Positions 4,022-50,557 of a stretch of DNA of 64,000 nucleotides are shown piece by piece. Source of the DNA: Streptococcus anginosus subsp. whileyi MAS624. GTDB lineage: Bacteria > Bacillota > Bacilli > Lactobacillales > Streptococcaceae. The translations under genes were made by a program, and so were the position numbers. Below the pieces are notes generated by a model, which had not been told where the DNA came from, did no database searches, and saw only the letters and a program-made list of their open reading frames with translations. The first letter of the stretch is position 1; every line of letters begins with the position of its first letter. The stretch spans positions 1,342,501 to 1,406,500 of the forward strand of contig NZ_AP013072.1 of assembly GCF_000478925.1 (NCBI RefSeq), written 5' to 3'.

Positions 4022-5068
4022 TTATTTAAATTGTTCTGAAAAACGAACATCACCTTGATAGAAGCCACGAATGTCATTGATACCGTAGCGCAGCATAGCC
4101 ACCCGTTCTTGACCCAGCCCAAAAGCAAAACCAGAATAAACATCCGGATCAATGCCACTCATTTCAAGGACGCGTGGGTGTACCATTCCAGCTCCCATAA
4201 TTTCAATCCAGCCAGTCTTTTTGCAAACATTGCATCCTTGCCCACCGCATTTAAAGCAAGAAACATCCACCTCAACAGACGGCTCTGTAAATGGGAAATA
4301 AGACGGACGCAGACGAATACTGCGGTCTTCTCCAAACATTTTTTGCACAATGAGCTGCAATGTTCCTTGAAGGTCTGCCATAGAAATATTTTTCCCGACA
4401 ACCAAACCTTCAATTTGATGAAATTGATGAGAATGCGTCGCATCGTCCGTATCCCGTCGGAACACACGCCCTGGCGAGATCATTTTCAGAGGACCTTTAG
4501 AAAAATCATGAGCGTCCATAGCACGAGCTTGAACTGGGCTGGTGTGAGTACGCAGCAAAATTTCTTCTGTAATGTAAAAAGTATCCTGCATGTCACGCGC
4601 TGGGTGGTCTTTTGGTAAATTCATCCGCTCAAAGTTGTAATAGTCTGTTTCGACTTCAAAACCATCTACAACTTGATAACCCATCCCAATAAAAATATCT
4701 TCAATTTCTTCACTTGTCTGGCTAAGAACATGACGATTCCCAGCAAGAATTTTCCGACCCGGAAGCGTTACATCTATTGACTCCTTAGCCAACTGATTGG
4801 CAACTTTTTGTTCTTCTAGTAGCTTTGCAGATTCTTCAAAAGCAGCGGTCAAAATATCCCGTGCTTCATTGACATGCTTCCCAATAATCGGACGCATATC
4901 GGCAGAGACGTCTTTCATTCCTTTTAAAATCTCTGTTAAAGAGCCTTTCTTTCCAAGGACAGAAACACGCAGATTCTGCATTTCTTTTTCATTTTCAGTT
5001 GAAATTTTTTTCAGCGACGCCAGAGTTTCTTCTCTAAGCTTATTTAATTGTTCCTCAATGGTTGACAT
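4022..5068 (-). CDS. pheS: Phenylalanine--tRNA ligase alpha subunit
   Basis: 348 residues, normal length. The N-terminal coiled-coil arm (about 1-90) is followed by the class II catalytic core: motif 2 [19 protein letters not shown] and motif 3 near the C-terminus ([15 protein letters not shown]). A CxxCGGxGCxxC cluster (around residues 270-282) forms the usual zinc-like loop of Firmicute PheS. The subunit binds ATP and Phe in the alpha2-beta2 enzyme. Start is ATG preceded by GGAGG. A T-box leader directly upstream shows control by uncharged tRNA-Phe. Confidence 0.97.
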
Positions 5069-49029: not shown

Positions 49030-49287
49030 ATGGCAAATTCAAAGCTTATTACGCGGCTGAAACGCTCTGAAGGACAATTGCGTGGCATTCAAAAAATGAT
49101 AGAAGAAGAGCGCGACTGTGCGGACATTATCACTCAATTAACCGCTGTGCGCTCTAGTGTCGAGCGGGTCATTGAGTTGATGATTACCGAAAATCTCACT
49201 GAATGTCTCAACCATCCTTTAGACGATCCCGAAGCTCAAAAAGAGCGACTAGAAAAAGCCGTCCAATACCTTATCAAGCGAAAATAA
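49030..49287 (+). CDS. cstR: CsoR/RcnR-family regulator, CstR-like persulfide sensor
   Basis: 85 residues, the all-helical DUF156 fold (SEGQLRGIQKMIEEERDCAD). Two cysteines, C30 and C59, occupy the CstR positions. The copper ligands of CsoR (C-H-C) are not complete, as no His follows at the CsoR place. CstR proteins form disulfide/tetrasulfide bridges with persulfides and release sulfur-detoxification operons. The rhodanese and CoA-disulfide reductase genes lie 1.3 kb away on the other strand, and a matching operator precedes them. A CsoR-type copper sensor is the alternative. Confidence 0.8.
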   Translation: MANSKLITRLKRSEGQLRGIQKMIEEERDCADIITQLTAVRSSVERVIELMITENLTECLNHPLDDPEAQKERLEKAVQYLIKRK

Positions 49288-49288
49288 C

Positions 49289-49325
49289 CTCAGCAGGCGA
49301 CGAAAACTGCTGAGGTTTGTTTATT
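49289..49325 (+). terminator. Terminator after cstR
   Basis: CCTCAGCAG / CTGCTGAGG stem with TTTGTTTATTT tail, directly after the stop. Confidence 0.88.
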
Positions 49326-49397: not shown

Positions 49398-49985
49398 GTA
49401 GTTCTTAAAGGAGTGTGTCCGCCCGGCGGACGAAATGAACTACTTTCAGGGCAAGCCGTCAGCCCGGCGGACAGAGCAAACTTGTTTCTAGGCAAGCCGT
49501 CCGCTCGGCGGATGAAGTGAACTTGTTTCTGGGCAAGCCGTCAGTCCGGCGGACAGAGCAAACTTGTTTCTAGGCTAGCTGTCAGCCCGACGGATGAAGT
49601 GAACTGCTTTTAGGACAGACTAGTGACCCGATCGACGGAGTGAACTGCTTTTAGGACAGATTATCGACCCGGTCGACGAGGTGAACTGCTTTTAGGACAG
49701 ATTATCGACCCGGTCGACGAGGTGAACTGCTTTTAGGACAGACTAGCGACCCGGTCGACGGAGTGGACTGCTTTTGGGACAGACTAGCGACCCAGTCGAC
49801 GGAGTGAACTGCTTTTGGGACAGACTAGCGACCCAGTCGACGGAGTGAACTGCTTTTGGGACAGACTAGCGACCCAGTCGACGGAGTGAACTACTTTTAG
49901 GACAAGCGGTCGAACCCGGTCAACGAGGTGAACTGCTTTTAGGACAGACTAGTGACCCGATCGACGGAATGGACTGCTTTTGGGG
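49398..49985. repeat. 41-bp tandem repeat array (14 units)
   Basis: Fourteen tandem units between cstR and the ybaK-like gene. The AAC (or GAC) landmark repeats at 49438, 49479, 49520, 49561, 49602, 49643, 49684, 49725, 49766, 49807, 49848, 49889, 49931 and 49972: spacing is 41 bases except one of 42. Each unit holds a dyad core: GTCCGCCCGGCGGAC type in the first four units, CGACCCGGTCG type in the last ten. The GC content is well above the surroundings. 41 is not a multiple of three, so it is not a coding repeat. Confidence 0.95.
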
Positions 49986-50068
49986 GCAGGTTGCCAACCA
50001 TTGAAAGAAAAGTCCTCCTCAATATGGTATAATAAGAGTAATAAAACAAATCAAAGGAGGCAAGTAAA

Positions 50069-50557
50069 ATGGACTTATACGCAAAAGTAGAAGAAACCTT
50101 GAACAAGTTAAACATTCCATTTGAAATCGTGGAACACGAACCGGCACTTACGACCGAGCAGGCAGACAGCTTTATCGAAGGCATTGAAGGCGTCCGCACC
50201 AAAACGATGTTTCTCACTAACAAGAAGAAAACCGCCTACTACTTGCTCATCATGGACGACAAAAAGCGCTTGGACATGGACTTATTTAAAGAACTGGTAA
50301 AAGCTAATAGAATTCGCATGGCATCCGCTGACAGTTTATTTGAAAAAATGATGTTGCCAGCAGGTGTTGTTTCTCCATTTGGATTGTTAAACAATGCCGA
50401 TAAAGACATTCAAGTTTATTTTGACAAAGAAATCATGTCGGAAAAACGAATGAGTTTTCACCCCAATACCAATGAAAAAACACTCTTTTTAGACACAACG
50501 GACTTACTCAAATTCCTAGAAGCCATTGGCTACGAAGCTCATATTGTTGAATTGTAA
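50069..50557 (+). CDS. YbaK/ProX-type aminoacyl-tRNA deacylase (PrdX-like)
   Basis: 162 residues. Free-standing editing domain that hydrolyses mischarged tRNA-Pro (Ala- or Cys-tRNA-Pro). The family's conserved Lys lies in GVRTKTMFLTNKK, with LLIMDDKKRLDM and the G-VSPFGLLN block. Length and the EHEPALTTEQA start favour the PrdX (ProXp-ala) subgroup over YbaK. Start ATG has AAAGGAGG. It has its own terminator. Confidence 0.88.
   Translation: MDLYAKVEETLNKLNIPFEIVEHEPALTTEQADSFIEGIEGVRTKTMFLTNKKKTAYYLLIMDDKKRLDMDLFKELVKANRIRMASADSLFEKMMLPAGVVSPFGLLNNADKDIQVYFDKEIMSEKRMSFHPNTNEKTLFLDTTDLLKFLEAIGYEAHIVEL

Follow-up and report, generated by a model that had tools for sequence, protein, structure and literature searches.

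Examination of a 64,000-nucleotide stretch of the 2.12 Mb genome of Streptococcus anginosus subsp. whileyi MAS624 (hereafter the window) reveals an array of 14 tandem units between a CsoR/CstR-type repressor gene and a gene for a YbaK/ProRS-editing-type protein (Table 1), in agreement with an earlier note on this DNA that placed it between cstR and a tRNA-editing gene; both family assignments come from NCBIfam matches below the cut-off. The YbaK protein shares 98% identity with its S. anginosus J4206 counterpart, and the corresponding gene is 94.7% identical to ybaK of the S. anginosus-group genome G054. Read in register, 12 of the 13 intervals between units are 41 bp and one is 42 bp, the exception being a 42-bp unit 13 that carries a 1-bp insertion. 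TRF reports 41-bp arrays at 49450-49594 and 49598-49981 and also reads 49417-49614 with an 82-bp period; together with the in-register reading this confirms that the array is real and regular, although the earlier note, right about the single 42-base interval, had counted 13 intervals of 41. Likewise, the two subfamilies it distinguished exist, as two types of dyad core, but their border falls after unit 5 and not after unit 4. The array is indeed GC-rich in AT-rich surroundings (0.546, versus 0.383 for the window and 0.363 for the intergenic flanks). The layout is not that of a CRISPR array, in which unrelated spacers of equal length separate short repeats: the entire 41-bp unit repeats, linkers included. 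A search of Rfam with 1701 bases returned three matches, every one far under the gathering score.

Table 1. Features of the array in the window and of its immediate surroundings
Feature	Position	Strand	Basis
CsoR/CstR-type repressor gene, upstream neighbour	49030..49287	+	ORF; NCBIfam sub-cut-off matches RicR/RcnR/FrmR
Terminator-like inverted repeat, between repressor gene and array	49287..49325	.	read by eye; minus-direction terminator score -16.1 kcal/mol
Whole array, 14 x 41 bp (unit 13, 42 bp)	49404..49978	+	TRF; units read out; covariance-model matches
Units 1-5, GTCCGCCCGGCGGAC-like core	49404..49608	+	units read out
Units 6-14, GTCGACCCGGTCGAC-like core	49609..49978	+	units read out
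Unit 13 with 1-bp insertion	49896-49937	+	units read out
TATAAT -10 box (putative) of the downstream gene, behind the array	50028..50033	+	read by eye
YbaK/ProRS-editing-type gene, downstream neighbour	50069..50557	+	ORF; NCBIfam TIGR00011, E 2.5e-6, below cut-off

A covariance model of the unit (R1), built on 40 units (alignment A1), yields 88 matches at E<=1 in the host genome (G000), both strands counted. Given that single 41-nt units reach E 3.4e-9 against the whole genome and that these matches fall at only ten places, with no solitary unit among them, the array is not a product of chance. The ten-copy dispersal, which emerged from the genome search that the earlier note had proposed, and the gene association described below are invisible from the window alone. 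The model matches 5 of 284 Streptococcus genomes; the most sensitive search shows eleven places in G054, one of them a single unit, and reading out gave ten array places in G113 and six in G196. The 36 arrays read comprise 229 units, with 188 of 193 intervals exactly 41 bp and the rest 82, 83, 78, 45 and 40 bp (a G054 array at 1506 kb lies outside this set and the comparison of sites). Judged from flanking genes, most arrays stand at sites that are orthologous between at least two and up to all four anginosus-group genomes, the shared sites being amylase/histidine kinase, NFACT/acetolactate decarboxylase, cstR/ybaK, histidine-triad/SAP, metG, ABC transporter/DUF218, DUF6261, thioredoxin and DUF6773 (the names metG, cstR and thioredoxin were assigned by eye or from NCBIfam matches). 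By eye, the edges of the arrays vary from site to site; in BOX elements, boxA and boxC ends frame the boxB modules.

Five of the ten host arrays are flanked by convergent genes and every unit carries a GC-rich hairpin, as might be expected of transcription terminators or insulators between genes. We regard such a role as extremely unlikely: separate terminator-like hairpins, recognized by eye, already flank the array at the cst and metG sites, strong terminator-like sites occur beside only 9 of 36 arrays in one direction and 5 of 36 in the other, no T run directly follows the core, and the link to DUF6261 would be left unexplained. The same intergenic distribution recalls the BOX and RUP elements of pneumococcus, to go by the portion of the source available (PMC3049150), and together with some ten dispersed arrays of related units per anginosus-group genome it could indicate repeats similar to BOX or REP, parasitic or domesticated, that owe their dispersal to an enzyme and now persist, the adjoining gene being their carrier or the spreading enzyme itself. 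This is distinctly unlikely in our estimation, as most sites are common to several species and thus give little sign of recent movement, while the arrays of paralogous DUF6261 genes differ in sequence, contrary to what copying would yield, and DUF6261 lacks a transposase domain in Pfam scans.

Comparison of orthologous arrays shows that they evolve by substitution and by gain or loss of whole 41-bp units, other indels being rare. At the site in the window there are 14 units in the host, 4 in G054, 5 in G113 and 5 in G196, so that the copy-number comparison suggested at the outset bears out the term minisatellite as a description. Across 18 orthologous comparisons we counted 592 substitutions in 4387 aligned positions. 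The net difference in length is a multiple of 41 in 16 of the comparisons, the remaining two reflecting the 1-bp insertion of the window's own array (because 41-bp gaps are frequently broken up by the aligner, the criterion for a length event inside an array was its net length modulo 41). Two further pairs, L149/L161 and L163/L172, whose 33 substitutions are not included in the 592, add two 4-bp events. The flanks, those differing at >=35% being excluded, have 131 substitutions in 1865 positions and 14 indels; the ratio of non-41 length events to substitutions is therefore 3 to 592 in arrays versus 14 to 131 in flanks (Fisher p 3e-8, with pairs that are not independent).

The six core pairs display a related constraint. 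Over 40 units 84.6% of cells are paired, two-sided changed cells number 29 versus 10.2 in shuffles, and pairing falls to 9-48% when the partner is slid along; in 160 pairs of orthologous units the inner stem positions changed 3-6 times each versus 22-32 for the loop, and one unit at the amylase site shows T-A in G113 in place of a C-G pair. On the other hand, core pairs with any two-sided change are no more numerous than in shuffles (3 versus 3.7), and single changes break a core pair in 34 cases versus 39 in which they restore one. Taken together, the evidence for pairing and these counter-counts imply that the constraint is modest, or that it is shared with templated correction of palindromes.

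A neutral minisatellite, whose copies are made and kept by slippage and homologous exchange and whose link to DUF6261 is old hitch-hiking, would account for the variation in copy number by whole units and for the greater likeness of units within an array (mean identity 0.67) than between loci (0.53). In the available part of a 2013 report, two S. constellatus isolates from one person differ in the copy number of tandem repeats of 4 to 41 nt, the 41-nt repeat having varied within a year (PMC3897883). Yet a neutral origin seems very improbable in view of the rarity of other indels relative to the flanks, the slower change of stem than of loop positions, and two further observations set out below, namely a 41/42-bp period common to unrelated sequences and the loss of arrays together with DUF6261.

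The host genome encodes two DUF6261 (PF19775) proteins, both outside the window, and one of its arrays lies upstream of a DUF6261 gene. A total of 284 Streptococcus genomes were searched for three GTCN9GAC cores in 41-bp register, with <=1 mismatch. Such arrays were recovered in 12 genomes, and the reversed pattern in one; 8 of the 12 lie outside the four anginosus-group genomes, and their inner cores are different ones (GTCCGATTTTCGGAC, GTCAAAATTTTTGAC and GTCGCTCCGAGCGAC, among others). In all eight (G227, G040, G168, G187, G158, G006, G159 and G058) a GTC array precedes a DUF6261 gene, with placement in G159 and G058 judged from positions and the gene concerned in G058 being a fragment; further G058 arrays and one in G227 have neighbours other than DUF6261. 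Matches to DUF6261 occur in 88 of the 284 genomes, and all 12 genomes with GTC arrays fall within these 88 (Fisher p 4.5e-7, with species that are not independent).

A survey blind to repeats gave a concordant picture. From about 140 DUF6261 matches we took 100 upstream regions, mainly by score, so that short and low-scoring matches were mostly left out, and scanned every period of 20-100 bp with a lag-identity threshold of >=0.571. The best period was 42 in 29 regions, 41 in 19, 83 in 14, 82 in 5 and 84 in 2, that is, in 69 of the 100; another period was best in 6 and none was found in 25 (three regions, of 119, with masked stretches gave a period of 20 and were counted among the other periods). 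None of 100 shuffled upstream regions had such a period, and it was seen in 4 of 227 control chunks of ybaK loci (42 in three, 84 in one), of which the two examined, L070 and L083, prove to be coding, with 14-residue repeats in one gene. This gene, beside ybaK in S. australis-like species (L070, L073, L083 and L086, at about 4100-4400, two of the four having been read), carries EAPVQEAPQFAAAP-like coding repeats of 42 bp. Because many of the 100 regions are near-orthologues, a fairer figure comes from clustering by blastn the regions that had not been selected for arrays: 23 of the 30 clusters have a 41/42-type array, 3 another period and 4 none. Among 46 DUF6261 loci with both flanks the array is upstream in 25 and downstream in none. 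Twelve array-bearing loci were added to this flank analysis and to the dyad analysis only, and stand outside the 100 regions and the 30 clusters. The association extends beyond the genus: G307 belongs to a different family within the order and has seven DUF6261 genes, six of which are accompanied by arrays with a period of 41 or 42. These six arrays all differ, and the seventh gene has none. We consider the linkage of array and DUF6261 to be well supported.

The fact that unrelated sequences settle on 41, 42 and 83 (41+42) indicates that the constraint acts on length. At 10.5 bp per turn, 42 bp correspond to four turns of B-DNA. Self-complementarity is less general: many of the arrays, though not all, have dyads that can be seen; unit consensus sequences form dyads at p<=0.05 in 11 of 69 arrays (loop >=3) and in 11 of 30 representatives, these being hand-picked with more than one from some large clusters, and at least three consecutive strict 15-mer dyads at 41 bp occur in only 2 of the 100 upstream regions.

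Several loci have peculiarities of their own. Twelve DUF6261 matches, some of them fragments, are present in G058 (L213-L216, L290, L313, L316, L318, L332, L339 and L349), along with several arrays that differ in sequence. In S. cristatus DD08 (L208, 3976-4010) the DUF6261 frame behind the array is interrupted near its start codon. At the DUF6261 site of the anginosus group (L146, L164/L173) the units are of type III in the host and type II in G054 and G113; the N-terminal residues of the protein also differ, as would be expected had the array and the beginning of the gene been swapped as a block.

Array and protein are also absent together. In the S. intermedius SK54 genome the profile search that matches DUF6261 in 88 of 284 genomes returned none, an empty result that falls short of proof of absence, and no array unit was found at E<=1 by the search that gives 97 matches in G054. 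Its sister G196, with a ybaK 98.2% identical to that of SK54, has four DUF6261 matches and six array places, so that in this one sister pair, which represents one gene tree and one event, protein and arrays are present or absent together. At the site corresponding to that of the window array SK54 retains a degenerate remnant of about one unit. The CsoR/CstR-type repressor gene upstream of its ybaK is likewise a decayed remnant, beside that of the array (L016, 2520-2790).

The DUF6261 protein has 34 homologues at E<=1e-5, with a conserved NNSRKYYAD motif in the 21 that were aligned. Its structure model is all-helical, and Foldseek found for it no PDB or BFVD match at E<=0.001 and no recognized DNA-binding fold. 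Pfam scans gave PF19775, with Filament and Hemerythrin below the cut-off, no other family above it, and no ParB domain, ToxN/CptN/TenpN-type toxin or transposase domain; tblastn of one member (P0024) against 72,556 plasmid records gave no match. One homologue (P0010), labelled as from Rothia sp. HSID18069, is 64% identical to the streptococcal protein, which suggests a mislabelled or mixed assembly.

In light of these contextual connections, we propose that the array and DUF6261 constitute a two-part system of which the array in the window is one chromosomal site, a proposal whose probability we judge to be evenly balanced. One array adjoins a DUF6261 gene itself, on its upstream side, and in the anginosus group more arrays of related units, including that of the window, stand at shared intergenic sites. 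With four helical turns per unit, every binding site (one to a unit and in many cases a dyad) would face the same side of the double helix. Occupation of these units by DUF6261, alone or within a larger complex, could give rise to an evenly spaced nucleoprotein array that may regulate expression where it adjoins its own gene and, at other sites, may mark or shape the chromosome. That DUF6261 binds, that it binds DNA and not RNA, and what the nucleoprotein does are points that we infer: a DNA platform that DUF6261 or a partner recognizes would agree with a step of four turns, with the dyads, with arrays whose sequences are unrelated between paralogues and with dispersed arrays free of promoter bias. 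Against the proposal count the 31 of 100 upstream regions without such an array at the threshold used, the lack of a recognized DNA-binding fold in the DUF6261 model and dyads that are not universal. The earlier note's interpretation as a whole is thus partly supported. Of the alternatives it listed, the fixed step, self-complementary cores, shared sites and genus-wide linkage to DUF6261 indicate more than a minisatellite and favor a protein-binding array, the binding itself being putative, whereas a hairpin-rich RNA agrees with the folding of one strand and not of the other.

The latter alternative leads to the main rival, which we deem unlikely: a transcribed string of repeats might bind the product of the DUF6261 gene that follows it, each paralogue with private repeats, much as in type III toxin-antitoxin systems. 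In those systems (ToxIN) tandem repeats are followed by a terminator and then by the protein gene. The arrays precede their gene, and at six loci (L338, L325, L303, L299, L292 and L284) a terminator-like hairpin, identified by eye, stands between the two, which resembles the type III order; L284 also has between its 42-bp array and the DUF6261 gene, at about 815-925, an element that from its sequence we take to be BOX-like. The DUF6261-linked arrays of the anginosus group lie between a promoter-like site (score 10-11) and the gene, at about 22-24 bp from its start codon and with no terminator between. Covariation of the core pairs and the folding of the minus strand of the window array, somewhat better than that of shuffles (z -2.32), would also suit a structured transcript; however, the plus strand folds no better than shuffles (z -0.80, 5 of 20 shuffles being equally good). 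Furthermore, dispersed arrays show no promoter bias on either strand (mean scores 8.5 and 8.3), which speaks against dedicated RNA genes, and DUF6261, all-helical and with no further Pfam family above cut-off, is unlike ToxN. A period of 41-42 could also belong to an RNA repeat, but its strictness over unrelated sequences is more easily explained by four helical turns.

DUF6261 and its arrays may represent an undescribed class of chromosomal protein-array systems, in which an all-helical protein reads a private four-turn (41-42 bp) array whose sequence is free to change while its period and often its self-complementarity are kept, in which paralogues within one cell have separate arrays, and of which one member, in the anginosus group, has distributed its arrays over about ten sites in a centromere- or macrodomain-like manner. 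We offer this more general formulation tentatively, as falling somewhat short of an even chance. The open-access literature (supplements aside) on streptococcal 41-/42-bp repeats, anginosus-group repeats and DUF6261 yielded no description of such an array family or of a linkage to DUF6261; in the parts available, the paper on BOX, RUP and SPRITE elements treats other repeats (PMC3049150), and DUF6261 appears in the mutation table of one paper (PMC10376253). The DUF6261 family hence gains a concrete candidate partner, the array before each gene. Should array and protein recognize each other, commensal streptococci would hold many natural pairs of differing sequence, several per cell, which could serve directly both to study the divergence of specificity and to build orthogonal protein-array tags. 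The system, if real, would also explain the variable 41-nt tandem repeat of the S. anginosus group, which in the accessible text of its report figures only as a possible typing marker, and it raises the question of how a cell benefits from having ten helix-phased arrays in its intergenic regions.

Among known systems, the closest layout checked in print is sopC of plasmid F, which, as far as the source texts available go, consists of twelve repeats of 43 bp, each with a 16-bp inverted repeat to which ParB/SopB binds (PMC6238139, PMC9178275). The likeness, which appears to be one of layout only, comprises a tandem array, a near-identical step, an inverted repeat per unit and, on the sopC side, a dedicated protein encoded nearby; the S. 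anginosus group matches it with 41-bp units and 15-bp dyad cores, a dyad that is not universal over DUF6261 arrays. In contrast to sopC, DUF6261 arrays are chromosomal and several per genome, they lie upstream and not downstream of the gene, their sequences are unrelated between paralogues, and the protein has neither a ParB domain nor plasmid-borne relatives by the searches above. With type III toxin-antitoxin systems they share private tandem repeats before a protein gene and, at some loci, a terminator-like site between the two; they differ in the all-helical model and toxin-free Pfam profile of DUF6261, in having dispersed arrays without the gene, and in a period fixed at 41/42.

REP/BIME elements with RAYT likewise combine a gene with adjoining repeats and further palindromic repeats dispersed between genes. 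DUF6261, however, has no transposase domain in Pfam, Y1 included, and its units are tandem at a helix-phased step. BOX elements of S. pneumoniae, S. mitis and S. suis are, from the sections of the source available, dispersed intergenic elements with tandem boxB modules able to form stem-loops and are frequent between convergent genes (PMC3049150), all of which the anginosus-group arrays resemble; by description, the arrays are set apart from BOX by the lack of a solitary unit in the host genome, by the old shared sites and by the protein gene that accompanies the array. Neither the protein nor the array fits any described system tested, while their arrangement has known analogues.
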